DNA of 37,281 bases from a virus. The translations under genes were made by a program, and so were the position numbers. Positions 2,592-36,621 of the stretch are shown here, one piece after another. The notes under the pieces were generated by a model, which was given only the letters and a program-made list of their open reading frames with translations, ran no database searches and was not told the DNA's origin. Position 1 is the stretch's first letter. Each line of letters starts with the position of its first letter. The stretch lies in the IMG/VR virus record IMGVR_UViG_3300044615_001273, positions 1 to 37,281 of that record. The stretch is one strand, 5' to 3'.

Positions 2592-2617
2592 CTCAATCTC
2601 CCCAAAGGTTGTAGGAT

Positions 2618-3865: not shown

Positions 3866-3896
3866 GGCGCGGTTGATCCTTCCGTTGGTTGCTGGG

Positions 3897-6284: not shown

Positions 6285-6287
6285 AGT

Positions 6288-8777
6288 CTATCTCCGAGGT
6301 GGGAAGATTTCAATGACTTGACCGTTGGGTTCAGGCATGGGCAAAGGTTCATTAGCCCAATCCTGTCTAGCAGCTGAAGACATGGCTGGAACTCCTCCAG
6401 CTTGGAAAAGCCGATTAGCTCCAGCGCCGACCTCATCAATTCCCCTACCGACGGCTCCTGGAATACCTCTGCCCAACAGCATGTCTCTATACACGTCACT
6501 AGCAAGGAGAGCACCAGTTCCGCGTCCAACGGCGGCCGTACCAGCTGTGACCCCGAGACCAGTGGCCAACATTGACGGGTCTAAGAGATAGGCGCCAGTG
6601 TTTGCTATGCCTGCCCCGATAGCTACTCTTTGAGCACTACCAGAATTTGGCATCCTCGGCATGAATTGTGCGCCGATCATTGCCAATTCCCCAAGCTCGT
6701 TTCCACCAGTCCCCTTTCTCAAGAAATCTGGGTACGCTGCACGAATGCGGGTCAACAAGGCGGCTGGATCGATCTGACCGTTTGGAGACTTTTCGATCAT
6801 AGGTTCGACAACATTCACCATCGCTCTCCACTGACTACGAGCTCTGCGAAGAGTGTCAACAAGTTCCGGCGCAGCTGATCTCTCAAGCATATCATCCAAC
6901 GCATCGCGAACCTGTCCCGCAAAATGACGGATGTTCGGATCCGGAGATCTTTGAGCCATAGACAATGGAGTGCCGTATCTGGTAAAAGCTTGGTAGGCTT
7001 CGCCAGACATAGTCCCGGAGGACGTGGCATTTCTCACGTCTTCTAGCTGACGCGCCAGAGCTTTTGCCGACCCGTCTGGCAGTGGCATTCTCAACAACTC
7101 GTCGTCAATTTTTTGCAGAGCGTCTGTGAACTGTTGGTCAGTACGAAGAGTGGTTCTTCTTGCCACATCGCTCATAGTGTTTCCAATTCTGCGTTCAGCA
7201 GCTTGGAGAGTATCTCGAGTGATGGCGTCGGTATTTTCCCCGATCGCTTTTGAGACCGCTCTTGTAAATTGAGACCGTTGTTCAGCGTTTCTCGCAACTT
7301 GCCCGCTTCCAGGAATGTTGTTCAAAGTTTCATCAAGCCACTTGATGAACGGGCTTTCGCTTATTTGACTGCCTCTGACTGGGACGCCCAGAGTTTCTGC
7401 TCTTTGGGCCAACGCCGCAACCTGAGGATTAAGAGACGGAGACAGGAACTGCCTCATGCTATTTGCGCCGGCGGAAATGGCAGGCGCGAGCACCGCATTA
7501 CCTACGGCACCAGCTCCCGTCCCGATTGCCATCTGGGTGCCTGTGTCTTGAGTAGGATCGAGAGTCATGGCTGTGGTTGCCGCACCTTGGGCAGCGCCCG
7601 TAGTCGCTCTAGCACCAAATCTCAAAAACGGATTGGCGGGAGACGTGGTTCCAGCCAGAGCCCGAGCTGCAGGAGCGATGGGGGCCGTCAACGTTGGGGC
7701 AGTGGCACCAACAATGGAGCCGGCTCCACGTATCACAGCTCCTCCAGCTTTGAGAGGACCGAGAACCCCTGCTACCTGGCCGCCAACTCTTCCGGCCAAG
7801 GCCATCCCACTGTCTCCGAAATCTCTCTCGAAATTTCTCCGCTCTTCGAGATTTCCTTCTCTGGTTTGTTGGCCGGAAGTGATCGGAACTCCCGCCCTTT
7901 CCAAAAACCTTCCAAAAGAGCTGTCTTTCAAATATCCGGTCAGTCCAGATTTTTCAGCTTGATTTGAAAGGAATTCAGCAGGCGCGTCAACAACATCGCG
8001 TAGACCACGACCCAACCCAGCCCCAAATCTTTCACCGGCTGAGGTTTGTCTGCGAGGGGGTGGGATTTGACCTGTTGCAGGATCTGGACGTTGAGTTTCG
8101 TTCTGAACCCCGAAAAGGAACTGGCCTATTGGATCATCGGCCATACCATCTGGAATGGCTCTGGGACCCGGCACGGTGGAAGCCTGCGGAGTGTTTTCAG
8201 AAGCCGAAGCTTGACTGATAATTCTAGGGCCTCTGACAGTCGGTGCAACGGCGCTTTCCTGGCCAGCCCCTGACAAAAACATCTCAATCGGATCTTGAGC
8301 AGTCTGACTGGTTTGAGTTTGCCCTGGCTGGGAAGTCGGTTGTGCGTTTCCAACAGGAGCTGCTGGTTGGGTTGGAGTCTGGTTTTCAGCCTGGGGATCA
8401 CGTGGCTGGTTGATTTCGTTGAACCTATTCATCACGTTTTCGAGATAGGCTTGAGTTCTAGGCCCCCAATTTGCCTGCCTTCTTCCGCCGTGGTATTCCA
8501 AAATGGCTTTTGAAGGGTCGCCGTGTCTGTTCAAACTTTCAGCAAGGTGGCGAGCGCCGGCGTCGATAGATTGGGCTGGATCGTATGGATCAGTCACGCC
8601 AAGTCTGCGGGCCGTGTCAGGAATGATTTGCATCAATCCGGCAGCCTTAGACTCTCTGTTGAATGCGCGTGGATTTCCACGACTTTCAATGTGCATGACA
8701 GCTTTGATCAAATTAGGGTCGACGTTGTGGCGCCGAGCCGCTTCTTCAATCAAATCGTTGAAATTGTCGACCGACAT
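6288..8777 (-). CDS. Internal virion protein with lytic transglycosylase domain
   Basis: Residues 5-115 form a soluble lytic transglycosylase (SLT) domain: IKAVMHIESRG with the catalytic Glu31, then AAGLMQIIPDTARRLG. The rest of the 829 residues is a Pro/Gln-rich linker (about 120-250), a hydrophobic Gly/Ala-rich part (about 330-450) and a helical C-terminal half. This layout fits large ejection proteins that enter the cell with the DNA and open the peptidoglycan locally. The start overlaps the previous stop as TAATG. Next to two other ejection-type genes it forms a three-protein ejection set. Confidence 0.87.
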   Translation of the reverse strand: MSVDNFNDLIEEAARRHNVDPNLIKAVMHIESRGNPRAFNRESKAAGLMQIIPDTARRLGVTDPYDPAQSIDAGARHLAESLNRHGDPSKAILEYHGGRRQANWGPRTQAYLENVMNRFNEINQPRDPQAENQTPTQPAAPVGNAQPTSQPGQTQTSQTAQDPIEMFLSGAGQESAVAPTVRGPRIISQASASENTPQASTVPGPRAIPDGMADDPIGQFLFGVQNETQRPDPATGQIPPPRRQTSAGERFGAGLGRGLRDVVDAPAEFLSNQAEKSGLTGYLKDSSFGRFLERAGVPITSGQQTREGNLEERRNFERDFGDSGMALAGRVGGQVAGVLGPLKAGGAVIRGAGSIVGATAPTLTAPIAPAARALAGTTSPANPFLRFGARATTGAAQGAATTAMTLDPTQDTGTQMAIGTGAGAVGNAVLAPAISAGANSMRQFLSPSLNPQVAALAQRAETLGVPVRGSQISESPFIKWLDETLNNIPGSGQVARNAEQRSQFTRAVSKAIGENTDAITRDTLQAAERRIGNTMSDVARRTTLRTDQQFTDALQKIDDELLRMPLPDGSAKALARQLEDVRNATSSGTMSGEAYQAFTRYGTPLSMAQRSPDPNIRHFAGQVRDALDDMLERSAAPELVDTLRRARSQWRAMVNVVEPMIEKSPNGQIDPAALLTRIRAAYPDFLRKGTGGNELGELAMIGAQFMPRMPNSGSAQRVAIGAGIANTGAYLLDPSMLATGLGVTAGTAAVGRGTGALLASDVYRDMLLGRGIPGAVGRGIDEVGAGANRLFQAGGVPAMSSAARQDWANEPLPMPEPNGQVIEIFPPRR

Positions 8778-10450
8778 TATCGACTTCCTCCCTGAGCCCC
8801 AGTTCCTGGAACGCGAACCCAGCCCTTATCGACAGCGGTTCTGAAATTTCTGTTGAAGTCTTCACGCTCGTTTTGAGACATGGCGTTCATCATCTGTCGA
8901 CGGCTTTCCGCGCTCATGTGTATAGCCTGGAAGATCCTCGGATCAAAGCCCTTGTTGAACTCATTCGAGAACTGGGTGTAGGTTTCCGGACCGCGGCCAG
9001 AAGACAACCACTTCTGCCATTCGTCACTCTTCACCCTGATTGCATCTGCGTTACCTTGCAGAAGGGCAATGATGCTCTGGTTACCCATCTTTGAAAGAGT
9101 TTCATTTGGACTTGTTCTCATAGCACTGGCCAACTGCTCGTTAGCTCCAGTCCCTCCAAGAGCTTGGAACTGCTGTTGAGCCAACTGAGTTGAGAGTTTG
9201 ACAAATTCTTCCTGCGCTGCCGTGCCTTCAACCCTGATCTGCATTGTCGGAGGGGCAATTCGGTTATACGCGTTGACCATTTCACGCGTCCAGGCGGCAC
9301 CGGGACCTGTGTTGAATTGAGTCAACATTGTCTTCATATTTCCGAGCGTCGCCAACATCATAGGAACTTGACCGGCTTCTCTGGACAAATCCATACTCAA
9401 TTCTGCAGAACGTTGCGCCACAACTTCAGACGCTCCGGCAGCTCCAAGAGGGGGTCCAGCAGGAGCGGCGGAAGGAGTCGGTCTTTCAGTTGGAGGACTT
9501 GAAGCTCCAGGCACTTGTCCAGGTCTTGGAGAGCCCGGATACCTCCCATCCCCCATTCCAGGTCTTCCTCCTGGCTGTTGAGTCGGCATTGGTGGACGCG
9601 GTGCCCCTGTGCCCGGAGGAGTTCCCTGGCCGGGAGCGGTGCCCGTGGCAGGGGCCCCTTCTCCTCCCACCATTGGAGCAATTTCCTGGCGAGGGACGAA
9701 TTCCATTTGACGAGTATTCGGATTGTAGCGTTGGACGAGATTGTTCCGAGCGTCCGGACCAGGCTCGTTTGTGACCGACTGCCCAGCCGCATTGGGATTT
9801 GTAAGAGGGTTTGTGTCGACAAACCTTGTGGCGGCTCCAGTTTGGACGCCAGTAGGATTGGGCAGAAATCTTTGAATTTGCTGCAGACCCTGGTCCGTAG
9901 ATGCCATTTGTTGAAGAAGCCACTGGCGCACCCCCGCAGGATTTGTCGGGAGGTTGGCAAGAGTAGCAGCGGCCACCGTCGCTGAGAATGGCCGTTCATT
10001 TTCAGGAAGGGCCAACAATTCACCGACTGCCGAAACCACATCTTGTCTGGTCACGTTGGGGTTTGCCAACAATCCCTGAATAGATTGGCGCATATTGTTG
10101 AGTCGAGCCATACCAAGGAGAGCTTGAGTTTGTTGAACTTGCAGATTGCCCTGTTCCAATGCTTTGGCTTGGGCAAGAGCTTGTGGAGCCAAAAATCCCG
10201 CCATCGGATTATTGGCAATTTCGGCCTTGAAAGCTTCCTGATTGATCTGACCAGTCTGCGGGTCCATAGAATTTTGCAACGCTCTACCGATAGTCTGTTG
10301 AGCGTTGAAAGTCTCGTCCTCTCTCCGAAATCTGTTGATGGAATTCGCCATGTCAACAGTTTGCGAAAATTGACTGAATGGATTGGTGTTCCCCGCGGGA
10401 GCTGTGGGCTTAAACCCAAGAGCGATGGAGGGATCGAGTCCGCCTGACAT
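8777..10450 (-). CDS. Putative ejection (internal virion) protein
   Basis: This 557-residue protein has a Gln/Asn-rich helical N-terminal part (FNAQQTIGRALQNSMDPQTG), a disordered middle with many Pro, Gly and Thr (about residues 265-345) and a helical C-terminal part. I see no enzymatic motif. Its position between the DNA-transfer-like gene and the SLT-domain gene, and its coupling to the latter by TAATG, suggest an injected protein comparable in role to the second ejection protein of P22-like or T7-like phages. AGGAG lies 9 bases before the ATG. Function is inferred from context and composition. Confidence 0.6.
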   Translation of the reverse strand: MSGGLDPSIALGFKPTAPAGNTNPFSQFSQTVDMANSINRFRREDETFNAQQTIGRALQNSMDPQTGQINQEAFKAEIANNPMAGFLAPQALAQAKALEQGNLQVQQTQALLGMARLNNMRQSIQGLLANPNVTRQDVVSAVGELLALPENERPFSATVAAATLANLPTNPAGVRQWLLQQMASTDQGLQQIQRFLPNPTGVQTGAATRFVDTNPLTNPNAAGQSVTNEPGPDARNNLVQRYNPNTRQMEFVPRQEIAPMVGGEGAPATGTAPGQGTPPGTGAPRPPMPTQQPGGRPGMGDGRYPGSPRPGQVPGASSPPTERPTPSAAPAGPPLGAAGASEVVAQRSAELSMDLSREAGQVPMMLATLGNMKTMLTQFNTGPGAAWTREMVNAYNRIAPPTMQIRVEGTAAQEEFVKLSTQLAQQQFQALGGTGANEQLASAMRTSPNETLSKMGNQSIIALLQGNADAIRVKSDEWQKWLSSGRGPETYTQFSNEFNKGFDPRIFQAIHMSAESRRQMMNAMSQNEREDFNRNFRTAVDKGWVRVPGTGAQGGSR

Positions 10451-11323: not shown

Positions 11324-11776
11324 CTAGAGATGTTTCACGAAGAGATATTCGTGCGCCGAATAGCCAAGACGCTCAAATACCGGCCGCTTGTTTATTTCAG
11401 GACGGGTCTTGCTGTGATAGGTCACAGAATTGACGCCCAATTCCTTCAAAGCTTTTTCAGCAGCTTTGAACATTTTCATGGCGGCCGGCCCTTTGCGAAA
11501 TTCCTTCTTGAGGAAATGCGCATCATCGGACGCCATTAGCATATAGCGGTAATGGAGAGGGCGATAGATAAGATGGATGATGTATCCCACCAACCGCCCG
11601 TCAGCACGAGCCGTCAACGCAAAAATCATGTTCTGCTTCTCGAGCTCAAAGTACTGATCCCAGTGCACGTCGAGGGGACGCGTCTCTGGCTCCGACGTGA
11701 CTTCGCGCCAATGTTCAAAAATCAAGTCCTTCAATTCTTGAACAATGTCACTGAATTTTTCGACCGCAAAGATCAT
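11324..11776 (-). CDS. GNAT-like acetyltransferase of the tail operon
   Basis: From ATG 11776 the product is 150 residues. The pattern is that of GNAT N-acetyltransferases: a beta strand with ALTARADGRLVGYIIHLI, a region with AMKMFKAAEKALKELG in the acetyl-CoA-binding position, and a C-terminal RPVFERLGYSAHEYLFVK like the family's terminal FYxxxGF segment. The acceptor is unknown. ATG 11776 is preferred to TTG 11788: it has GGAG seven bases upstream and overlaps the oxygenase stop as ATGA. Placement among structural genes suggests modification of a virion or host component, or virion cargo. Confidence 0.7.
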   Translation of the reverse strand: MIFAVEKFSDIVQELKDLIFEHWREVTSEPETRPLDVHWDQYFELEKQNMIFALTARADGRLVGYIIHLIYRPLHYRYMLMASDDAHFLKKEFRKGPAAMKMFKAAEKALKELGVNSVTYHSKTRPEINKRPVFERLGYSAHEYLFVKHL

Positions 11777-12327
11777 TGGGGTCTCCAACAGTCAAAGATG
11801 ATGTGGATCCTACCACTCTCTCCATCATTTTTTGCACTGTGTTCGACGGTCTTATCATACCACCACACGGTGCCCTCGGGCATGTTAATCTCCTCGTCGC
11901 CGATTTTTGAGACGGCTTTATCATTCGTCTCAATCGGATAGTGAAAACGCTCGGTCTGTTCAGCATACTGGCCTTCGTCTCTGTGCGACTTAATCGAACC
12001 TCCAGCACGAAGATCGACGATCAAAACTCTCGCAAGAGGCATACCAACAACGTGTTGAAGAGCGGTCAAAACGGCGTCGAACCTTCGATCAAGCTGCAAA
12101 GCTGGCCAATTCACCACGCGCGTGTCATTTTGCGCATCTCTCAGTGATTTGAAGGGCCACGGCGGAGCTCGCAAATATATGGACTTCGTGTCCACATGAG
12201 GAGACCCTTCGTGGTTTTCCCGAATGTCGACCAATCCGAACTCATCAAAATGTTCACGAACGAGAGTTTTGGCGACGTCCAAAATCTCGCCGCCCAAGTC
12301 GGCCAGCTTGATGTGATGATTTGTCAT
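11773..12327 (-). CDS. Aspartyl/asparaginyl beta-hydroxylase-like 2-oxoglutarate oxygenase
   Basis: The 184-residue protein has the iron-binding layout of 2-oxoglutarate/Fe(II) oxygenases, closest to the aspartyl/asparaginyl hydroxylase group. SHRDEG carries the H-x-D pair, EHSAKN the distal His, and GRIHIIFD an Arg suited to hold 2-oxoglutarate. RFHYPIETN and MPEGTVWWYDKT are typical of the beta-barrel core. Such enzymes hydroxylate protein side chains; the substrate here is unknown. It overlaps the 111-residue gene before it and the GNAT gene after it, each by 4 bases, so the three are probably translated together. Confidence 0.78.
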   Translation of the reverse strand: MTNHHIKLADLGGEILDVAKTLVREHFDEFGLVDIRENHEGSPHVDTKSIYLRAPPWPFKSLRDAQNDTRVVNWPALQLDRRFDAVLTALQHVVGMPLARVLIVDLRAGGSIKSHRDEGQYAEQTERFHYPIETNDKAVSKIGDEEINMPEGTVWWYDKTVEHSAKNDGESGRIHIIFDCWRPQ

Positions 12328-17871: not shown

Positions 17872-18672
17872 TCAGGCCTGTTTCTTTTGAAGTTGCTTTT
17901 CGCGCCAGGCCATCCACTCAGATGTGGACATTTTTTCAGGGTCGGCTTCGGCTGTGGTTGAGCCTTTGACAGGTTTGATAGGCGCTGGCGCCTTCGAAAC
18001 CGGTGCCGGTTTTGGCGGCTGACTGACTCTGGCCGCCACCTTGGCCACTTCCACCCCCATTTTCACCGGGCTCATTCTCATAATTTTGAAAGCGAGATCC
18101 CGATCCTTCGCCAACTCATAGAGAACTTTTGGACCCTCTCCGGTTTCAATAGCGGCTTCGATAAACGCCGGAGTGAGGCCGCCAATGTCCTTATAGTTAG
18201 TGAGAACATCGTCAAAATCGTTATACAACGTTTTTCCGGTGTCGTACACAATATTGCACGCATTATTAAAGGCATCGGCGCGAATTCTTTCGTCCGCTTT
18301 CTGCTCGGCCAGGCGCTCGATTTCGGCCTTTGTGAGGTCCTTCGGCGTCTCTTCCTGGGGTGGTGTTTCACCACGGCCTTCACGATAGATGGCCAACTGG
18401 GCCTCAAGTTCCTTGGCCCTTGCAGAAGCCGCTTCTGCCTCACGTCTGGCATCCCACTTATCTTTTGTGAGAGTGTCAATTCTGGTCTGGAACCAGGGTT
18501 TCTCCTTCTTCCCCTCCTTTCCTTCAGATTTACTTTCGCCTTCCTCGCCACTTGAAGCCTGTTGCTCCTTCCCACCTTCAGACTCACCAGTCTCCTCAGT
18601 GACTTCGGAGGTGACAGGAATAGCGTCGTCACCGGGGGTCGTTGTTTGAGTTTCTTCAGAAGTACCGCTCAT
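17872..18672 (-). CDS. Capsid scaffolding protein
   Basis: From ATG 18672 the product is 266 residues. It starts with a disordered acidic stretch rich in Glu, Ser and Thr (about 1-60), followed by a coiled coil (DARREAEAASARAKELEAQL), a helical middle (NACNIVYDTGKTLYNDFDDV) and a Pro/Lys-rich section before a basic C-terminal helix (MSTSEWMAWREKQLQKKQ). A long helical protein with a charged C-terminal helix, directly before the coat gene, is the scaffold pattern. GGAGA lies close before the chosen ATG; in-frame ATGs at 18681 and 18687 have no better site. Confidence 0.83.
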   Translation of the reverse strand: MSGTSEETQTTTPGDDAIPVTSEVTEETGESEGGKEQQASSGEEGESKSEGKEGKKEKPWFQTRIDTLTKDKWDARREAEAASARAKELEAQLAIYREGRGETPPQEETPKDLTKAEIERLAEQKADERIRADAFNNACNIVYDTGKTLYNDFDDVLTNYKDIGGLTPAFIEAAIETGEGPKVLYELAKDRDLAFKIMRMSPVKMGVEVAKVAARVSQPPKPAPVSKAPAPIKPVKGSTTAEADPEKMSTSEWMAWREKQLQKKQA

Positions 18673-18747
18673 GTTCTCCATCCTCATGGATAATTGTGCC
18701 CGGTGTGTTGGATCGCCGGTAATCCCCTGCCCACTATGGGCGAAGCT

Positions 18748-19056
18748 CTATTGGAGGTTGATCACTCTACTGCGAACACCTCGACCTTGTTGGAGGCTCT
18801 TATCCAAAAGGAGAGCCTCGAAGATGATTTCCTTCTGCTGTTCTTCAACAGTTTTCGAACTCAACATCTGGGCCAACACTTGGCGAGCCTGTTCAATCAA
18901 ACTCCCGTAGGTCTTTTCCACAAAGACCTGTTGGCTTCTGTTCAATTCATACCAAGCATTGTTCTTGGCCAATTCTTCATACACCGCTGCGGCCATGCCT
19001 TTAGCGGTATCAGCCACCATCTTGTGGCAATGAATTTGACGTGCGCGACGGCTCAT
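18748..19056 (-). CDS. Small conserved-type virion protein of the head operon
   Basis: This 102-residue helical protein contains MAAAVYEELAKNNAWYELN, then FVEKTYGSLIEQARQVLAQM and EIIFEALLLDKSLQ. I recognise the general pattern of small helical proteins found near portal and scaffold genes in phages of this type, but no named function. AAAGGAGA overlapping the end of the third ADP-ribosyltransferase-like gene serves as its ribosome-binding site. It may be an assembly factor. Confidence 0.6.
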   Translation of the reverse strand: MSRRARQIHCHKMVADTAKGMAAAVYEELAKNNAWYELNRSQQVFVEKTYGSLIEQARQVLAQMLSSKTVEEQQKEIIFEALLLDKSLQQGRGVRSRVINLQ

Positions 19057-19061
19057 GATCT

Positions 19062-20333
19062 CTATTCTCCTTTGAATGGGTCGTGTTCGACCGATTTTAG
19101 ATGGACGCCTGGACCGTAGTCCTTGATCTTGTCCCCCTTGATGTCGTATTGGGCCAAGGCTTTGATAAAGTCTGGATGGAAAATGACGTAGTTGTAGGTC
19201 TTTTTCTCCCTCTTCACGGACAATCTATTACGATTTTCAGTAGCCCATTTAATCAACGCATCATCCTTATCCGCGTAAAAAGTGTCTCTCATTTTTCTAT
19301 ATCCGGCCGCCGACCTGCGCACGCCTTCAATGGCCTTGTCTATGTCGCCACCGTGCCGTTCTACAAATTGGGCCAGCGCCACTACGTTTTTTCTCTCGTC
19401 ACCCTCCTCCATATTTACCCAGGGTGAACTATCAAGAAGAAGTTCTGGCCTCGAATGTCTTGAACTTCCATCTTCATACCTAATCCCGTGGATGCCGGCA
19501 TTGTAAAGAGCTTCGGACGCCGCAAAGTCAGACCTATTGTTCCTCACCAACTGTTTGTAGACCGTTTCTCCAGATTGGGGGGCGTCGCGCCATTCTTCAG
19601 CTGCGGCAGGATCGCTGAAAGCCTTTAGAATTTTTTCCATAGCTTCTGGATGGTGGTCGACCAAAGAATTGTCCCAATCTAACATGGTCTCAGGCGTCAA
19701 GTGGACTGCGACTCGATATGAGTAGGGGCCCTCGGACTCATTTGAAACATAGGGTGTCGTATATTGTAGAACTTTACTCCACAGTTCTGCGGAGTCCTCC
19801 CTCAAGAATTTATCTCTCGCTTCAATATCCTCAGGTCGTGAATTTTGATCTGTATAATGTTCCCCTTCAATCTTATACCTTAAAAAAGCACCAAAACCTT
19901 CTGTCAAATTTTGGGGAGCTTCATACAATGTGTCGCTATGGGCCTCATTGTAAACGTTGATAAATTCGTGCAAATTATCTAGAAGATGGGGACTACGATT
20001 AAGACTTGAAAGGTCGAGCAATTTCAAATAGCGGTCGTAGTCTTGGGTCTTTGCCTTATGTAATTCTTGAAGGTTTACGCCATTAAAACGCAAGTTTGGG
20101 GCTCCACGATTACCAACCACTGCCGGATGTTTTGAGAATTCTTCCATATAACTTGATGTGCCAGGACCAGACACTGCAGGAGACTCTGCCACGTAGGCAG
20201 CTCCACGCCCAAAAGATGCGGCGCCTTGGCCTTTGCCAGACACTTCACTCATTGCACCAAACTTCCCCTCTGGAATGTCGAAGGGCGAAGCGTGCCACGC
20301 CATTAGAGCGTTGCCAAATCTCTTATCGCTCAT
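19062..20333 (-). CDS. ADP-ribosyltransferase-like protein, paralogue C
   Basis: The 423-residue protein starts with AWHASPFDIPEGKFG (His14) and GQGAASFGRGAAYVAES, matching the first strands of ADP-ribosyltransferase domains found in phage polyvalent proteins (WHGSP...YGxGLYFA). YRVAVHLTPETMLDWDNSL, the segment NAGIHGIRYEDGSSR, and NYVIFHPDFIKALAQY follow in the family's order. His and Tyr of an H-Y-type NAD site are visible; a third catalytic residue cannot be assigned. It ends in VHLKSVEHDPFKGE. It overlaps paralogue B by 4 bases (ATGA). No lineage-typical target is apparent. Confidence 0.72.
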   Translation of the reverse strand: MSDKRFGNALMAWHASPFDIPEGKFGAMSEVSGKGQGAASFGRGAAYVAESPAVSGPGTSSYMEEFSKHPAVVGNRGAPNLRFNGVNLQELHKAKTQDYDRYLKLLDLSSLNRSPHLLDNLHEFINVYNEAHSDTLYEAPQNLTEGFGAFLRYKIEGEHYTDQNSRPEDIEARDKFLREDSAELWSKVLQYTTPYVSNESEGPYSYRVAVHLTPETMLDWDNSLVDHHPEAMEKILKAFSDPAAAEEWRDAPQSGETVYKQLVRNNRSDFAASEALYNAGIHGIRYEDGSSRHSRPELLLDSSPWVNMEEGDERKNVVALAQFVERHGGDIDKAIEGVRRSAAGYRKMRDTFYADKDDALIKWATENRNRLSVKREKKTYNYVIFHPDFIKALAQYDIKGDKIKDYGPGVHLKSVEHDPFKGE

Positions 20334-21760
20334 TGGCCGCTATCCTTAAACGGGTCGTGATCAACTGGATGGAGGTGGACACCAGAACCGTAGTCCTTGA
20401 GCTTCTCGCCTTTGATATTGTATTGGGCGATTGTCTTAATGAATTTTGGGTCAAGAACGACGTAGTTGTAAGTCAAATTCTTGGGCTTTTCTGGGACCGG
20501 TTTCAAAGGCGGTAAGGTTTTGGTGACCTTCTTGACCTCAATGTGGTTTTGATTTTCTGCGATCCAGTTTAAGAACTTGGCGTATTGTGCAACTTCTTCA
20601 GGCTTTTTATCATAGCCGCGAAGCAAATCAGTGATATGACTAATGACGCCTTGAATTGACGGCTGGGGTTTTCTGTCAAATACATTGTCCGATAGGAAAA
20701 GAGTTCTAGTTATTTCGTCCAAAACTTTTGGATTGGCGACCTTCTTTTCGGCACCTTCTCTGGGGGCAAGTCCGACAACTTCTTCAATATATCTCGGCTT
20801 GCTCAACTCAAGGTCTTTTTTGTAATCAACCCACCTCCCCCGACTATCGCCATCCAAATATCTGATTGCCCTAATTCCAGCTTTGTGCAAACCTTCAGAG
20901 GCGTCGAACTTCAAATCGTGTTCCGGAATGGTCCCTTTCAACGAGTACCCCGAAGCATGGAGCCTTTGAAGGGCTGAATAGACCTCTTCTCCCGATTTTC
21001 CGGACAAACCGTCAAAAGGGTGAGTCTCCTGCTTTGCGTCCTCAATAACGTTGGAAAAAGCTGACTTAATTTTTTCAAGAGCTTTCGGGTGGTGGTCCTC
21101 TAATGCGTTATCCCAATCCAACATGTTGTGAGGAGACAAGTCTAGAGCCACTTCGTATGAGTATGGGCCACCTGAGGGGTCTTGTCCGAAAAATTTCAAC
21201 TTCTTTTTTGCAAGTTCTAATCCACTTCTGACCATTCTAGCGTGGTCAGGCGTGTAATTGTTATCGTCGACGGGTGGCCCCGCCTCCATAGCCATATACT
21301 TTGCAAAATTTTCATCTCCCAAGTCATCGAGATCTCTTTCTATTTGGGTTAAAGCATTATCGTACATGTGCCGATTAAACTTGCTAAGACGATTTGAGAT
21401 CCAATTAAAACCAGCTTCTCTTTGATCAAACGCTGTGTCATACTCTTCACTCATGGCTCTGGCGCTTGACAAATCGTGAAAACTATCATCAAGTGGTTCC
21501 CATTCACCATCAATGTTGATGTGCCATCTTTTTTGAGTTTTTCTAACGGCTTGATGTTGAGAAAACTCTTTCATGTAGACTGACTCCCCAGGCCCTGACA
21601 AAGCCGGAGACTGGGCCACGTAGGCTGCCCCTCTTCCGTAAGCTGCCGCGCCCTGGCCGGTGCCTGAAGACGCCCGCATAGGAGCAAACTGCCCTTCGGG
21701 GATGTCGAAAGGGGATGCGTGCCACGCCGTCAGAGTTTTGCGAAAGTCACTACCGCTCAT
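20330..21760 (-). CDS. ADP-ribosyltransferase-like protein, paralogue B
   Basis: This 476-residue paralogue has AWHASPFDIPEGQFAPM (His14), GQGAAAYGRGAAYVAQSPAL, YSYEVALDLSPHNMLDWDNA, GEEVYSALQRL, AGIRAIRYLDGDSRG and YNYVVLDPKFIKTIAQYNI. It ends in VHLHPVDHDPF plus seven residues. It differs from its neighbours mainly in the region after residue 70, which is longer and helix-rich (HDLSSARAMSEEYDTAFDQR). The DNA encoding its C-terminus overlaps the start of paralogue C. Likely role: modification of a host protein or nucleic acid after entry, or interference with host defence; both are inference. Confidence 0.72.
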   Translation of the reverse strand: MSGSDFRKTLTAWHASPFDIPEGQFAPMRASSGTGQGAAAYGRGAAYVAQSPALSGPGESVYMKEFSQHQAVRKTQKRWHINIDGEWEPLDDSFHDLSSARAMSEEYDTAFDQREAGFNWISNRLSKFNRHMYDNALTQIERDLDDLGDENFAKYMAMEAGPPVDDNNYTPDHARMVRSGLELAKKKLKFFGQDPSGGPYSYEVALDLSPHNMLDWDNALEDHHPKALEKIKSAFSNVIEDAKQETHPFDGLSGKSGEEVYSALQRLHASGYSLKGTIPEHDLKFDASEGLHKAGIRAIRYLDGDSRGRWVDYKKDLELSKPRYIEEVVGLAPREGAEKKVANPKVLDEITRTLFLSDNVFDRKPQPSIQGVISHITDLLRGYDKKPEEVAQYAKFLNWIAENQNHIEVKKVTKTLPPLKPVPEKPKNLTYNYVVLDPKFIKTIAQYNIKGEKLKDYGSGVHLHPVDHDPFKDSGQ

Positions 21761-23097
21761 TTGCCTTCGTCCTTAAACGGATCGTGCTCAACAGATTTCA
21801 GGTGGACACCCGGCCCAAAGTCTTTCACCTTATCGCCCTTGATATTATATTGAGATAATGCTTCTACAAAATCCGGGTGGAAAATGACATAGTTGTAGCT
21901 GGCTGACGGGCGGTAAGTAGAAAACTTCGATGCCTCATTTTTCAATAAATCTCTAGCTTCGGATAAGACATCGGAGTCGAATTCCCAATGAATTGGAAGA
22001 GGACGATTGCTTTCAAATACCTTTTTCAATTGGTCAAAATTCATTGAACCATGCGTGATCTGTCTATGAACTTTCGCAATAAGGTTCAGGGACTCATATT
22101 TGGGCTCGACTTTGTCTGATTTTGCAAGTTCATTTAGATATTTCCCTATTGGCTTATCGTTGTATTTGAGTTCAGGAGGAATTTGTCTGCTCAAACCATC
22201 TAAATACCGGATCCCGTGGATCCCAGCATTGTAAAGAGCTTCGGACGCGGCAATACCAATATCTACTCCACCTTTGTCAAAGTGTCTCATCAAGTCGTGG
22301 TAAAAATCCTGTCCACTCTTATTAGGATTTGTGAAACCTCGAGACGATTTATCCTCCTCATAGGCTTTGCGGTCTTCTTCGTCCATTTGAGAAAGGTCGT
22401 AATCGCTTAGAGTTTCAGTTCCTTCCATCATGTGTTGCAACGGGGCTAACTTCTTCTGAGCCTGCTCATGATGATCTCCCAAGACACTATCCCAATCGAG
22501 CATCGTCTCAGGCGTTAAGTGGACGGCCACTTGATATGAGTATGGACCACTATTTTTGGGAGATGTGTGGTGTTTCTCGATGAATGCTTTGGCTTCTTTC
22601 GCTGCTGCAATCAGAAACTGGGCGTCCTCTCCATGAGTTGTATAATCATCCGGTTCTGCGATCAACTGATCCGCATCACGATTGACCTGATCTTTAAGAC
22701 TTTTGGCGCCGGAACCTCCGTGCAAAGCGTGGGCGTAGGTCGCCTCTGAAATCAACTCAAAGGCGCGGGTTGACAAGGTGTTGAAAGGATGCGGAAGATT
22801 TGCCGTAGAAAACCCCCTCCAGTTATTAGGAGTCATGTCATCCTGGATCTGGGCCATGCTGAAACCACCGACCTTCTCGCCAACAGCTGCTGGATGCTTT
22901 GCAAATTCCTCCATATATTCTGATCGACCGGGACCTGACACGGAACGAGACTCAGCGACGTATGCCGCACCTTTCCCGTAGGACGAAGCTCCTTGCCCGG
23001 TCCCAACAGTCTTCTTCATTTCACCAAACTTGTCGAAATCATACGGCGACGCATGCCACGCCATTATGGGAGCAAGTTTGTTGGAAGATCCAGACAC
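21757..23097 (-). CDS. ADP-ribosyltransferase-like protein, paralogue A
   Basis: The 446-residue protein begins with GTG, with GGGAG seven bases upstream. It has AWHASPYDFDKFGEM (His15), GQGASSYGKGAAYVAES (Tyr46), YSYQVAVHLTPETMLDWDSV, GQDFYHDLMRHF, NAGIHGIRYLDGLSR and YNYVIFHPDFVEALSQYNI. WHASPxDFDKF is closest to the polyvalent-protein ART signature. It ends in VHLKSVEHDPFKDEGK. It is the first of the three tandem paralogues and follows an unknown 203-residue protein by 2 bases. The ART fold is well supported by motif order; activity is unproven. Confidence 0.75.
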   Translation of the reverse strand: MSGSSNKLAPIMAWHASPYDFDKFGEMKKTVGTGQGASSYGKGAAYVAESRSVSGPGRSEYMEEFAKHPAAVGEKVGGFSMAQIQDDMTPNNWRGFSTANLPHPFNTLSTRAFELISEATYAHALHGGSGAKSLKDQVNRDADQLIAEPDDYTTHGEDAQFLIAAAKEAKAFIEKHHTSPKNSGPYSYQVAVHLTPETMLDWDSVLGDHHEQAQKKLAPLQHMMEGTETLSDYDLSQMDEEDRKAYEEDKSSRGFTNPNKSGQDFYHDLMRHFDKGGVDIGIAASEALYNAGIHGIRYLDGLSRQIPPELKYNDKPIGKYLNELAKSDKVEPKYESLNLIAKVHRQITHGSMNFDQLKKVFESNRPLPIHWEFDSDVLSEARDLLKNEASKFSTYRPSASYNYVIFHPDFVEALSQYNIKGDKVKDFGPGVHLKSVEHDPFKDEGK

Positions 23098-23099
23098 GG

Positions 23100-23711
23100 T
23101 TAGACTCCCACCAACTTCAAGAATGTCTTAATGGCTGCGTTGCCAGCAATCGTCTTGGAAGCAGTAGGGTGCTTCAGCATCTCATTCAAATACTCCTTGT
23201 TCATCACAAGGTATTTAGTCGTCTTCCCCACGTCTGGGTAGTCCATGACCAGGCCGCCATCCTTTTGGACTTGGGGGCGCACGCCTCCAAAGACCTTGTC
23301 AGGCACCGTCGGTATGATGGCTTTGATCAGCGTGGGTCCGCCGAAGTGGAGGTGTGGCACAATCATGCCACGCTTCTTGGCCATGGCAGCCAACGGTGAA
23401 GACACGGCACCCCAAATCGGTCCGCCTTCTGCTTGAAGGCTGTCAACACCTTTGATGATGGATCTCGGATCGCCGGCAACTCCAACCATCTTCTTCATGC
23501 CAGACTGCTGAGGTCTGACTGCTATGAAGCCGTCAGTGTCACCATGGAACTCCCAATTCTGAGCCCGATTATCAAACTTCGGCCGTTCCCAAGATGATCC
23601 AGTTTCCTTCTTGTAGGAAGCTTGGAACTGATCGAAGAGCTTGTTCTTACCCTGCTCGTCTAGATCAGAGTATCCGAACTTCTTGATGATCTGGTTCTGG
23701 GATCCTGACAT
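23100..23711 (-). CDS. Unknown protein of the cargo-like island
   Basis: The 203-residue protein contains FQASYKKETGSSWERPKFDN, then FHGDTDGFIAVRPQQSGMKK and VGVAGDPRSIIKGVDSLQ, and a region with GPIWGAVSSPLAAMAKKRGM. The sequence is reminiscent of an acetyltransferase-like alpha/beta fold (a strand with IAVRPQQSGMKKMVGVAG, then a helix), but the acetyl-CoA P-loop is not recognisable. I do not assign a function. AAAAGG lies 9 bases before the ATG. It lies between a GNAT enzyme and the ADP-ribosyltransferase-like array, so it may be part of the same delivered set. Confidence 0.55.
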   Translation of the reverse strand: MSGSQNQIIKKFGYSDLDEQGKNKLFDQFQASYKKETGSSWERPKFDNRAQNWEFHGDTDGFIAVRPQQSGMKKMVGVAGDPRSIIKGVDSLQAEGGPIWGAVSSPLAAMAKKRGMIVPHLHFGGPTLIKAIIPTVPDKVFGGVRPQVQKDGGLVMDYPDVGKTTKYLVMNKEYLNEMLKHPTASKTIAGNAAIKTFLKLVGV

Positions 23712-23714
23712 TGT

Positions 23715-24344
23715 TCAAACGCCTTTTGAAGGTTCCACAACTTGGAGATACTTGCCAGGCCTGTCTGGGTTTGGGATATACCAATTGCCGTCAGCTGCTT
23801 GGCGCAGACCGTCGATCAACGGGTGTTCCTTCTCCTCAGTCTCAGGTTTCCACGTTTCACCAGGCCCCATACCACTCGGATCGAACTGCATGACAGGATC
23901 ATTCTCGTACTCATTCCTCTGAGTGAAGCCCATCCGCTCATAAAACGGAATAGCTTCTTCGGTGGAATGGAGGTGGATGATCTTGTCTGTCTTTGTGGCA
24001 TGTTGCATGGCTTGTTCGAGAAGCATCTTGCCAACGCCCGGGTGGATGGACCCGAGATGATGCACTTCAACGTGGTCTTCTGACGTACCCTTCGAGGAGC
24101 CGTAAGCTATTGCTCCAACTGGCATTCCATTGTGCATCGCAAGAAAGCGGTTAGGATAGGCCGAGAACATGGCCATCTCCATCTGATCGAGAGCGCCTCG
24201 GTAATTCCCATCGGTGCTTTGACTCGCCATTCGTCTCATAGTGTCGACCAACTCTTCTCGACCACTTCTGGTCTTCGGAGCTTTGACCAACTGAGGAGCA
24301 AAGGGATCGTGATCAACCGGTCTGGTTTTGATGTTGCCTGACAT
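23715..24344 (-). CDS. GNAT N-acetyltransferase with portal-like C-terminal tag
   Basis: From ATG 24344 the product is 209 residues. The core is a GNAT domain: FLAMHNGMPVGAIAYGSS, then VEVHHLGSIHPGVGKMLLEQ (the acetyl-CoA loop region) and HSTEEAIPFYERMGFTQRN. The N-terminus carries RPVDHDPFAP, the motif found at the C-termini of the three ADP-ribosyltransferase-like proteins. The C-terminus (LIDGLRQAADGNWYIP, then NPDRPGKYLQV) matches the portal C-terminus. It directly follows the portal stop, and ATG 24344 is preferred over an upstream TTG/GTG-type start inside the portal gene. The acceptor is unknown; virion cargo is plausible. Confidence 0.78.
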   Translation of the reverse strand: MSGNIKTRPVDHDPFAPQLVKAPKTRSGREELVDTMRRMASQSTDGNYRGALDQMEMAMFSAYPNRFLAMHNGMPVGAIAYGSSKGTSEDHVEVHHLGSIHPGVGKMLLEQAMQHATKTDKIIHLHSTEEAIPFYERMGFTQRNEYENDPVMQFDPSGMGPGETWKPETEEKEHPLIDGLRQAADGNWYIPNPDRPGKYLQVVEPSKGV

Positions 24345-24345
24345 A

Positions 24346-26763
24346 TCACGTCGTCCCCAAGACTTCGAGGTATTTGCCCGGACGCTCAGGGTCGGGCAGG
24401 TAGAATTTACCATCGGGTGCACGCCTCATCCCTTCGATGGGTGTGTCATCCGGCGATGGTTGTATGTCTCGCGGCGTGGCTTCACCAGGATTGCCCATGG
24501 GTTGTGCCAGTGAGTTCGGTTGATCGATGCCTTGGTCAGGCGGTGCCATGTTCTGGTATCCTTGTATGAGGTCAGGTATATTACTACCTTCGTCGCCCAA
24601 TGTATCTAACAAAACTTTCCTGACAGCGTCAGCCATGGCGGCGGGATCGGCGGCTCTGGCCAACGCCTTGTCAACAAGGTCGATCATGGTCTGCATCCGG
24701 TCGGTTTCAGCCTTGAAGGTGTCAACGGCCACTTTTTCCTGACTGACTTTGGTTTCACCGGTCTTATCGGCCAGAGCTTGCAACGCAGCTGCCAAGCTTT
24801 GTTTCAACCCTTCGACCTGTTCCATCAGGATCTGGGTCTCAGGATCAGGTCCTTCGCCCAACGCCTGCTTCGGAACCATCCTCTTCAGTCGCTCCGCAGC
24901 CTCGTCGGCCATGGGGAAGTCACCAGCCTTCATGAGAATATCGCCGATGATCTGCACCAACTCAGGACGGTTGGAAATGATCTGAGTGAATGAGTTGAAA
25001 GCTTCTTGGCGCCTGGTTGCGTAGTTCGGACCCACGTCAGATTGAACTTCGTATCTCCCGACGTTTGGATTGAGTATCTGGGTGATGGCCACCTGCTTAT
25101 CAGTTTCACGTTGAGAGGGCTTCTTGCTTTCAGCCAGAGCTTGCTGCTGGGTTGGGTCGATCTGAATTTGACTCTCAGTCCCATCCTCTCCCAGGGTTCT
25201 GATCATTCTCGGCGTGTCATAGATCTTCGGGATCAAGTCAATCAGGATCTTGCCAGTGAACCTGATGGCAATAGCAAGGTTGTCAATGTAGTGGAATGTC
25301 GCCTTGTTGCCAGTGCGCTGACGTTCCTGGATGGCTATGCCCGTCTTCTCATCACCCTGCTCTCCAAGCGTGGGCTCATACTGACCGGAGACCGCCATCA
25401 TTTCAGAGCTTGAGATCTGGAGACCAGTGATGTATGCTTGAGGCATAGACACAGGCTCTTGACGCTTCGGTGGTTGTAGCGGCCTCCCCTGGTCATCGTA
25501 GGCATTGTAGGGCAGGACCGAATAGTTGATCTGATTGGCGTTGCCGTATTGGTTCTCGAAGCCCTCAATTGACTCGGCAGATGCAATGTATGGTGTCTTG
25601 GACTGGAGGGCAACGTTCTCGACGGCCGACGAACTCCAATAGTTGTAAACACGTTGAGGGTCTTTCAACGCCCTCACGTGGCCCTTGCGATCAAGCTCTT
25701 TGTCAATGATGGTCTCTTCACCAATCACTCGAACGATCGGGATGTATTTCCCAGGCCAAATCTTGGTCTCGAGAACCATGGAGCCAACGATCAAGAACCA
25801 CTCAACGTCGTATGTTGAAGCCATCCTCGTCCGTGTCATAGGGTCGTTCTTGACCATGTCGACGATCTCAGGACTCAGGTCCGAGGCCTTGACAACCTTC
25901 CTTTCGTTGGTCGATGGGTCGACAAATGATATTAGTTCCTCTTCACGTTCCAAGCGTCTGAAGTATTCGGCGCGACGCACGTGCTTATCATCAACCCAGT
26001 CGTTGCCCTCATCGAGACCCGTATTGCTGCGACCAACCTTGCCCTTCAGGTTCGGATAGGATCGGTTGAACTCATCGACTGGCATATCTTGGAAGATGAA
26101 TGCGTAAGAGGCATCTGACCCGTCAACCTCATTGATGTCGGGGTCGATGTAGACTGAGAACGGGTCACGGACCCTTCGAATGAAGATCTCCTGGTCAAAT
26201 GAGTCATCAGCCACGTAGTCGGTGACCACGCGCCAGTAGCCGATGCCCATTTTGACCTGGCTCTCAGTGGCTGAGTCGTAGGCACTGGAAGCATTCGAGT
26301 GGTATTCAATGCTGCGAACGATGCTCTCAAGCACCTGTGCCGCCTGATACGTGGCACCGCCGCCCGTCGCTTTGATCTTGATGGTCGGCTTGTTCTGCTT
26401 GGCGTCGTTGATGATCATCAAGCAGTGTTGTCTGGTCTTGTTGATAGTCAGCGCAGGTCTCTTATCGACCTCTCTGGCCTTGCGAACATCGTTCGGCCAT
26501 TGAAAGCCGTTCTCACTGTCAGCTTCAACGAACTTCAAGTCCTCGAGGTTTCTCTTTCGAGTCAGTGCTTCCCACGCAGCACAGAGTTTGAACCTCTCCT
26601 TGGCTTCTTCGAGGATCTTATCGCCTTGGCGCTTTGGAACCTTCTTCGTAGCCTGAGGATCTTCCTCTTGTGAGAGGTCTTCAGGCTTCTGAGGTTCGAG
26701 AATGGGGAGGAACTGTTCAGGATCCAGACCATCGCCCTGCGGAACTTCGATATAGCCACTCAT
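24346..26763 (-). CDS. Portal protein, P22 type
   Basis: The 805-residue protein has the P22 portal pattern: FQWPNDVRKAREVDKRPALT, then INKTRQHCLMIINDAKQNKP, VKMGIGYWRVVTDYV, RDPFSVYIDPDINEVDGSDA and SGQYEPTLGEQGDEKTGIAI. A helical C-terminal barrel-like region (about 620-740) and a Pro/Asp-rich tail follow; the P22 portal has 725 residues. The last 30 residues end with DPERPGKYLEVLGTT, a module shared with the next gene. The start at 26763 has AAGGAG nine bases upstream; the frame is open further but lacks a better start. It forms the dodecameric DNA entry ring. Confidence 0.9.
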   Translation of the reverse strand: MSGYIEVPQGDGLDPEQFLPILEPQKPEDLSQEEDPQATKKVPKRQGDKILEEAKERFKLCAAWEALTRKRNLEDLKFVEADSENGFQWPNDVRKAREVDKRPALTINKTRQHCLMIINDAKQNKPTIKIKATGGGATYQAAQVLESIVRSIEYHSNASSAYDSATESQVKMGIGYWRVVTDYVADDSFDQEIFIRRVRDPFSVYIDPDINEVDGSDASYAFIFQDMPVDEFNRSYPNLKGKVGRSNTGLDEGNDWVDDKHVRRAEYFRRLEREEELISFVDPSTNERKVVKASDLSPEIVDMVKNDPMTRTRMASTYDVEWFLIVGSMVLETKIWPGKYIPIVRVIGEETIIDKELDRKGHVRALKDPQRVYNYWSSSAVENVALQSKTPYIASAESIEGFENQYGNANQINYSVLPYNAYDDQGRPLQPPKRQEPVSMPQAYITGLQISSSEMMAVSGQYEPTLGEQGDEKTGIAIQERQRTGNKATFHYIDNLAIAIRFTGKILIDLIPKIYDTPRMIRTLGEDGTESQIQIDPTQQQALAESKKPSQRETDKQVAITQILNPNVGRYEVQSDVGPNYATRRQEAFNSFTQIISNRPELVQIIGDILMKAGDFPMADEAAERLKRMVPKQALGEGPDPETQILMEQVEGLKQSLAAALQALADKTGETKVSQEKVAVDTFKAETDRMQTMIDLVDKALARAADPAAMADAVRKVLLDTLGDEGSNIPDLIQGYQNMAPPDQGIDQPNSLAQPMGNPGEATPRDIQPSPDDTPIEGMRRAPDGKFYLPDPERPGKYLEVLGTT

Positions 26764-26776
26764 TTGGACGGCTCCT

Positions 26777-28057
26777 TCATGACGACAACCACGCACCGCC
26801 GGTCATAGGCAGTTCAACGTTGATGGTCTTCTGTTGTTTCAGACCTTTCGGCTTGGCCTCTTTGAGACCAACCGCCAGGTAGCGGAATGCATCGGCACCA
26901 TGGGAGGCCCAATTGTGCAGCGGTTCTTTGCTGAATTGGCCGGTGACTTCGTCGACCTTGTATTGATAGTGGCTCAGACACTGCCAACCGTCTTGAGTGT
27001 TCTGCTCATCAAAGACGCAAGAAGGAAATATGGTGCGAGCCGCATTGATGCCGTCTTCGATGCTGATGTTCGGGACAATCTGCACCTTGAAGCCAGCGGC
27101 GACCATCTGACCCTCGATTGAAAGAGGATGCATGATGGTCTTCGATCTAGCGTCATGAGGTAGGTAGTGAGTATCATACACATAGGGCTTCGTCTGAAGG
27201 GTCTTCATGTAGTGACCAATAGACTGAAGGTTGTTTGAGTAATAGTCAATGATGCGACGTTCATAGCCAACAAGCTGGGCAAACCAGATGGCCGTGTGAT
27301 CCGACCTGCCAAGGTCCCAGAACGTGAACACTGGTTTGCTAGGATCATATGGAACCCGTGTTCTACGCTTCTCCTCGAGCACAGCGCGAAGCTCTTTGGC
27401 GTAGATGGCGCCGGTCAGAGTCTGAGAACACTTGCCTTCCCAAACGTGGAGCCAAGCATCCGGGTCCTTGGCCTTCAGCGTCTCCATCTCTACACGAAGC
27501 ACCTCAGGGAACCAAGGGTTGTCTCTCCAAGAGATCTCCGACACTACCGCATTTGGAGGGGGATCCTTGACAAACCTAACGTAGGTCTCATCAGTCTCAA
27601 GCTCAGGGTTGAAACTAACCCAAATCTCAGAGCCGTCCTTTCTGATCGTGGGGATCAAAACTTCCCAGCTGCGTTTTGATACGTTCACAGCTTCTTCGAC
27701 CCAGACGATGTCGACGCCTTCAAACGATTTAAGTGAGTTGATATTCTTTCTCAAACCAGCAAAAACAAATTCAGAGCCATTGTTGCCTATGATCTTGGTC
27801 TCTTGAACATCATAAAATGCCGAAAGGCCGAGCGCCACGATTTGTTGTGAGAGAAGTTGGTGGACCGACTCTGCGATTGAGTTTTGAAACTCACGGGCGC
27901 AGAGTATTCTCAATGGTTTTGACGCCGCTAGAACCAACAGCGCTCTAGCAATTCCCCAGGACTTGGCGCCTCCGCGCCCGCCGTGGAGAACCTTGTATCT
28001 CTTCGGCTTGAAGAGAAGTTGGAGCTTCTCTGGAAACTGGGCTTTAGCCTGTGTCAC
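26777..28057 (-). CDS. terL: Terminase large subunit
   Basis: The 426-residue protein has the ATPase site [11 protein letters not shown] (Walker A, about residues 25-35), VDIVWVEEA (Walker B with catalytic Glu) and [16 protein letters not shown]. The C-terminal nuclease region includes [14 protein letters not shown] (first metal Asp), HDARSKT and [12 protein letters not shown]. It packages DNA into the prohead through the portal, encoded next. Translation starts at GTG 28057, overlapping the TerS stop as GTGA. The length is typical of the PBSX-type terminase group. Confidence 0.93.
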
Positions 28058-36398: not shown

Positions 36399-36554
36399 AT
36401 GACGCGGAATGAGATGGTCAGTTGGCTTAAAGCCCACGGGTGGCAAGCCAACTGGGATCAAGTGTCGGAAGATGAACTTCGGCGCTGGATTGAAGTTGAA
36501 CACGAGAGGAAGGCTGACTTCCTCATCGAGTGGCAGGAGATAGGGCGCCTTTAG
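36399..36554 (+). CDS. 51-residue protein overlapping the tRNA
   Basis: ATG 36399 is two bases after the previous stop and opens 51 codons, ending at TAG 36552-36554. The product contains MVSWLKAHGWQANWD and WIEVEHERKADFLIEW, a plausible helical protein. The last three sense codons and the stop lie inside the tRNA acceptor and D-arm. No clear ribosome-binding site is seen, so translation would rely on coupling. Confidence 0.5.
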   Translation: MTRNEMVSWLKAHGWQANWDQVSEDELRRWIEVEHERKADFLIEWQEIGRL

Positions 36555-36621
36555 CTCAGTTGGATAGAGCAACAGCCTTCTAAGCTGTGGGTCGGTGGTT
36601 CGAGTCCACCAAGGCGCGCCA
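36545..36621 (+). tRNA. tRNA-Arg (anticodon UCU)
   Basis: The acceptor GCGCCTT pairs with AAGGCGC, the D-arm GCTC with GAGC, the anticodon stem ACAGC with GCTGT around CTTCTAA (anticodon TCT), and the T-arm GGTGG with CCACC around TTCGAGT. Discriminator G and encoded CCA follow. It reads AGA, and possibly AGG, codons, which are frequent in the phage genes but often rare in GC-rich hosts. Confidence 0.95.

Follow-up and report, generated by a model that had tools for sequence, protein, structure and literature searches.

The window analysed here is an entire viral contig of 37,281 bases (IMG/VR record IMGVR_UViG_3300044615_001273), whose head operon contains three tandem genes for putative ADP-ribosyltransferases (ARTs), which we call ART-A, ART-B and ART-C. 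The operon lies on the minus strand and runs from TerL through a P22-type portal, a GNAT acetyltransferase and a 203-residue protein to the three ARTs, followed by a 102-residue gene product, the scaffold and the coat protein (Table 1). As a preliminary description of the locus had proposed, the ARTs are tandem paralogues between portal and scaffold: all three open reading frames (ORFs) are on the minus strand and overlap by exactly 4 bases, and the AWHASP, GQGA..[YF]G[RK]GAAYVA, MLDWD, AGI..IRY.DG.SR and YNYV blocks recur in the same order in each. ART-C is 42–46% identical to ART-A and ART-B. Two further features had gone unnoticed. The ARTs carry a seven-residue C-terminal motif, [PS]V[DE]HDPF (the tag), that appears again near the N terminus of GNAT, and a 22-residue peptide (the tail) is common to the C termini of the portal and GNAT, both of which terminate in R.A.DG.[FW]Y.P[DN]P.RPGKYL.V. 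For GNAT, an ATG at 24344 is the likely start, in preference to the listed GTG at 24422.

Profile comparison and modelling place the ARTs, as divergent representatives, in the ART-PolyVal/Tox-ART-HYD2 family. They are new members of a known family and predicted catalysts; the family membership initially suspected from motif order is borne out. HHalign comparison of a profile of twelve ARTs from the post-portal region (hereafter the slot) with nine canonical polyvalent-protein ARTs gave 99.9% probability and an E value of 6e-34. Residues H14, Y47 and D288 are invariant across 43 ART domains (43 of 43), and the triad is present in ART-A, ART-B and ART-C. These residues agree with the strand-1 histidine, strand-2 tyrosine and strand-5 aspartate that characterize the clade (Iyer et al. 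2017, PMC5512222), with strands assigned on an AlphaFold model. This model, built from an alignment of the 43 sequences, has a predicted local distance difference test score (pLDDT) of 82 and a predicted template modelling score of 0.70, and Foldseek matched it to viral ART-PolyVal models at E values of about 1e-9. It superseded a model from 12 close sequences (pLDDT 66) that gave no useful Foldseek match. Other searches returned little: all three ARTs were unmatched in a Pfam and NCBIfam scan, only ART-C matched in PHROG, weakly (phrog_873, E = 8e-5), PADLOC gave nothing meaningful for them, searching PDB sequences with a pair of ART profiles found nothing relevant, phage tblastn with ART-A gave zero matches, and scanning our genome collection for ARTs recovered distant polyvalent ARTs only. 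Each ART has one recognizable domain, below the two to fifteen per polypeptide that define polyvalent proteins.

Table 1. Features of the head operon and of the ART genes in the window
Feature	Position	Strand	Remarks
TerL		-	PF04466
Portal, P22-type	24346..26796	-	PF16510, E = 4.9e-160; phrog_156, E = 6e-116
Portal C-terminal tail	24361..24426	-	RRAPDGKFYLPDPERPGKYLEV
GNAT acetyltransferase	23715..24344	-	PF13508, E = 4e-7
GNAT N-terminal tag	24300..24320	-	PVDHDPF
GNAT C-terminal tail	23739..23804	-	RQAADGNWYIPNPDRPGKYLQV
203-residue protein	23100..23711	-	Without tag; kept in related loci L008, L009, L010 and L037
ART-A	21757..23097	-	446 residues; triad H15, Y46, D300
ART-A insert 2	21898..22185	-	Replaced in L009: 14% identity; rest of protein 91–98%
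ART-A C-terminal tag	21775..21795	-	SVEHDPF
ART-B	20330..21760	-	476 residues; triad H14, Y47, D303
ART-B insert 1	21170..21553	-	Diverged in L009: 45% identity versus 83–98% elsewhere
ART-B C-terminal tag	20348..20368	-	PVDHDPF
ART-C	19062..20333	-	423 residues; triad H14, Y47, D288; AlphaFold pLDDT 82
ART-C insert 2	19197..19457	-	Replaced in L008 and L009: 16% identity versus 76–100% elsewhere
ART-C C-terminal tag	19074..19094	-	SVEHDPF
102-residue gene product	18748..19056	-	Untagged; conserved between slot and scaffold
Scaffold	17872..18687	-	phrog_8865, E = 7e-30
P22 coat protein		-	PF11651, E = 6.2e-34

A tandem trio had been regarded as unusual, a view that finds no support in this lineage, since sets of ARTs recur in the same slot of related loci, with three each in L008, L009 and L037 and five in L010. 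The five post-portal genes of L010 (positions 2608-9284) range from a 157-residue form that matches PF18760 up to a 490-residue form. At the other extreme, L016 encodes a portal 69% identical to that of the window, and its portal–scaffold interval holds only a 100-residue gene product. Compared with L008 and L009, the N-terminal core of the ARTs is 91–100% identical and the C-terminal core plus tag 96–100%. The divergence noted earlier in the central regions of the ARTs is real, and can now be refined to wholesale replacement of insert cassettes flanking the core, one of which, insert 2, lies between the strand bearing the catalytic aspartate and YNYV: entire segments are exchanged around a fixed catalytic core. 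To judge from this pattern, the exchanged inserts probably govern which targets are chosen or permit escape from host recognition, and such swapping makes both target choice and evasion testable.

Of the earlier suggestion that the ARTs form a delivered set of toxins or counter-defence enzymes, delivery as cargo is supported by inference, from their head-operon position and from a tag common to other slot enzymes. Head-operon genes are expressed late, as would suit ARTs that are active within the producing cell towards the end of infection, or that serve as non-catalytic head proteins, with no injection. We consider this improbable: the H-Y-D triad is invariant, insert replacement is typical of conflict proteins, the tag is held in common with peptidoglycan hydrolases and with nucleases having immunity genes, and a general pattern of ARTs in head operons has been reported (Iyer et al. 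2022, PMC9503650).

The tag occurs on proteins that are otherwise unrelated, namely ARTs, lysozymes, GNATs, metallopeptidases and DNases with SUKH immunity genes, and has the consensus [DS]-L-[VI]-P-V-[DE]-H-D-P-F-A. Among the first relatives collected, PVDYDPY, PVEYDPW or PVDHNPF forms the end of unrelated slot proteins, one of them a phage lysozyme (PF18013, E = 1.6e-20). We fixed a regular expression for the tag on these first relatives and then applied it to 77 loci fetched later by portal similarity, where it matched 13 of 152 slot ORFs and 0 of 1,304 other ORFs; 720 permutations of the tag elements gave a mean of 0.07 slot matches, and the next best permutation gave 5. Scanning the whole collection for PV[DE]HDPF yielded at least 120 loci. 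Among the matches listed, the motif was in frame in 94, no more than 45 residues from a protein end in 84, and repeated inside one protein in 16; a control of the same composition, PF[DE]HDPV, occurred at 29 loci, in frame at 10 and repeated in 0. The 89 non-redundant tagged proteins among the matches listed fell into 24 BLASTP groups once tags were masked, with the tag N-terminal in 53, C-terminal in 16, at both ends in 11 and internal in 9. Domains found on tagged proteins include ART-PolyVal, Hydrolase_2, WHH/colicin DNase, LPD23, DUF6782, DUF4329 and DUF7178. The internal PVEHDPF seen in T4-type RNA ligases of L132 and L156 was taken as a chance match.

Two alternatives would give the peptides a role other than docking. 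Tag and tail could be processing or linker sites, for instance sites cleaved by a peptidase of the phage, of which the slot metallopeptidase domains are an example. DUF6782/HExxH domains are indeed present in slots, and some large slot proteins have the tag in an interdomain position, but cutting within 45 residues of an end, where the tag mostly lies, would free no more than a short peptide, and no recognized peptidase is present in the slot of the window; we give this explanation little credence. Alternatively, given that slot cargo is highly mosaic, the peptides could be by-products of DNA-level recombination joints that shuffle slot genes. The 109 tags, however, are encoded by 90 distinct 21-mers. 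Because synonymous codons vary so freely, the tag is conserved as a peptide, and we regard a DNA-level joint as very improbable indeed, largely ruled out by this codon diversity.

In one locus, L179, two N-terminally tagged proteins lie downstream of a portal that bears the tail, and behind each of them comes its own SUKH (SMI1/KNR4) gene (positions 3678-6850, minus strand; PF09346, E about 1e-22). One tagged partner is a WHH/colicin-type nuclease, and the arrangement resembles a phage-borne polymorphic toxin–immunity pair without a MuF domain.

Tagged genes are accompanied by the tail. Its consensus, GARxAPDGxxYxPDPxRPGKYLxV, sits at the C terminus of a virion protein, and in most loci the tagged gene adjoins the gene for that protein. 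Among the matches listed, 64 of 82 tag-selected loci have a C-terminal tail no more than three genes upstream, 52 of them immediately upstream, as against 0 of 10 loci selected with a permuted tag. The tail-bearing portals span PHROGs 156, 1216 and 12082. In the reciprocal scan, the tail alone retrieved 58 loci, 38 of them new; in 37 of these 38 it lies inside an ORF, invariably at the C terminus. Where a downstream ORF was available, the tag was found in the next three genes at 27 of 33 tail-selected loci, and in the very next gene at 26. Among the six misses, one is a variant (PIDTDPF) and most others resemble locus-border fragments or mis-called frames.

Searching 50,697 phage records with the tail by tblastn gave one match, Pseudanabaena phage Pam5. 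There gp12, a lysozyme-domain protein, ends in the tail, and the next gene product, gp13, begins MANLVPVDYDPFAAPAQAGGAPKLVPVDHDPFA and carries two tags. Since Pam5 was located by its tail alone, it amounts in effect to a blind prediction of the tag. Four named phages with P22-like portals (PAE2, phiAX1, ctNMl277 and DSL-LC05) have neither tag nor tail. The portals of L023 (8092-10500) and L024 (7578-9986) bear the C-terminal tail in duplicate. In the L131 portal (2783-4405), the tail stops after VPGARK and is followed by unrelated sequence, with a tagged ORF downstream; the break is probably a frameshift.

Tail and tag also come and go together. Across portal-selected loci their association gave a Fisher p value of 7e-13, even before regular-expression misses were corrected. 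Such misses account for discordant calls in the tails of L010 and L203 and the tags of L059 and L070; the others reflect tags that deviate from the pattern (L065, L081-L083), loci that are truncated, a disrupted slot in L028 and the probably frameshifted tail of L131. On the portal tree there are seven supported independent contrasts, and the tag tracks the tail in 6.8 of these on average and runs opposite in 0, with some tail and tag states corrected by eye (uncorrected tag states give 6.1). Both peptides are absent in L016, L046, ppBeUSDA76-2 and phiGT1. The LPD23-like slot protein of L046 is untagged and its homologue in L042 is tagged, and ppBeUSDA76-2 shares 70% portal identity with L179, yet in the former tail and tag are missing. 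The portal gene of this Bradyrhizobium phage is unannotated in its record (our L271; OP596614.1, record positions 19585-21243).

The best reading of these sequence patterns is that tail and tag form a docking pair that would load enzyme cargo into short-tailed phage particles. In the window, the ARTs would be produced alongside the head proteins; their C-terminal [PS]V[DE]HDPF would dock during assembly on the portal tail, or on the identical-type tail of GNAT; the cargo would leave with the DNA at injection; and the injected ARTs would modify host or defence proteins. Any enzyme that acquired the tag would become cargo. At its C terminus the P22 portal folds into a barrel located within the head, with ejection proteins nearby (PMC8402733), so a tail at the portal C terminus would be well placed for internal cargo, and a portal dodecamer would by analogy offer about twelve docking peptides. 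We consider this account as a whole, from active ARTs through tag–tail loading and injection to modification of host or defence proteins, to be probable. For its generalization we lean, if only slightly, towards a two-peptide cargo code common to several portal families, in which tails on portal or ejection-region proteins bind tagged enzymes; the predicted cargo would comprise ARTs, GNATs, peptidoglycan hydrolases, peptidases and DNases with immunity genes.

Several observations weigh against this account. Foldseek matched the ART model to viral ART-PolyVal models and to no solved ART structure in the PDB, so the fold assignment rests on homology and prediction. The window ARTs go unmatched by Pfam PF18760 at its curated cut-off; canonical homologues, reached via L008, L009, L010 and L037, match it in some cases, below the cut-off where inspected, and because profile comparison with family members succeeds, we read the miss as divergence. 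When the portal tree is restricted to portal-selected rows, five contrasts remain, 4.1 concordant and 0 opposite, too few for significance to be reachable. The 203-residue slot protein of the window lacks the tag, the L010 ART at 5476-6699 has a degenerate tag only, and the ART in the slot of phiGT1 is untagged; position alone may therefore suffice. In Pam5 the tail sits on the lysozyme-domain protein and the portal is without it, so the portal is not necessarily where docking would occur. Finally, P22 ejection proteins are recruited by the scaffold, and the portal is dispensable (PMC8402733).

For this last reason, the main rival to docking is a model in which tag and tail are each bound by a third partner, such as scaffold or coat, as independent signals to the head interior. 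The occurrence of the tail off portals and the presence of both peptides on the window GNAT would fit such an arrangement. Independent signals, however, would have no need to occupy neighbouring genes in loci of three portal PHROGs or to be lost together, as is the case for tail and tag, and we judge the third-partner model unlikely, if less so than the other alternatives.

The proposed system can be set beside four known ones. The window ARTs resemble ART-PolyVal (PF18760)/Tox-ART-HYD2 domains of polyvalent proteins (PMC5512222) in the H-Y-D triad, motif order, profile and head-operon context, but they are stand-alone and tandem, contain lengthy exchanged inserts, carry the tag at the C terminus and fall beyond the Pfam model. 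MuF polymorphic toxins of temperate phages (Jamet et al. 2017, PMC5576092) likewise place the cargo gene immediately downstream of the portal, with variable toxic domains that include ARTs and with immunity genes in some, as here in L179. The element common to the present loci is instead a tag of seven residues that has its counterpart in the tail of a neighbouring virion protein, and no MuF domain is among the Pfam matches of slot or tagged proteins. Phage T4 offers both a head-packaged, injected ART, Alt, as we propose for the window ARTs, and a short terminal peptide, the capsid targeting sequence, common to different internal proteins. That sequence is cleaved by the prohead protease. The T4 signal is N-terminal only, whereas the tag differs in sequence, may be N- or C-terminal and has a partner peptide. 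The P22 ejection proteins gp7, gp16 and gp20 are internal proteins near the portal barrel of a P22-like particle; unlike the tagged proteins, they are encoded elsewhere in the operon and incorporated independently of the portal, and such a tag is unreported for them.

A literature search of open papers, with most subscription journals outside its reach, found neither tag nor tail peptide, and the pair looks to be undescribed in the open literature searched. The way in which phages choose non-structural enzymes for packaging in the head has been worked out for only a handful of systems, chiefly T4. If a portable tag and a matching portal peptide do act together, virion cargo would be predictable from sequence, many anonymous phage genes would become candidate injected effectors, and delivered enzymes would be directly testable. 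Under such a code, payload would change by gain or loss of a seven-residue tag.

Several other genes of the window deserve mention. The 203-residue protein, which has no family match, is kept in the ART-bearing relatives, always directly ahead of the ARTs. The tail module encodes a second GNAT (PF00583, weak; 11324-11788) and an Asp/Asn beta-hydroxylase (PF05118, E = 1e-15; 11773-12327). Near the contig ends lie a tRNA-Arg(TCT) gene (36545-36621) and a dCMP deaminase gene (PF00383; 466-1059).
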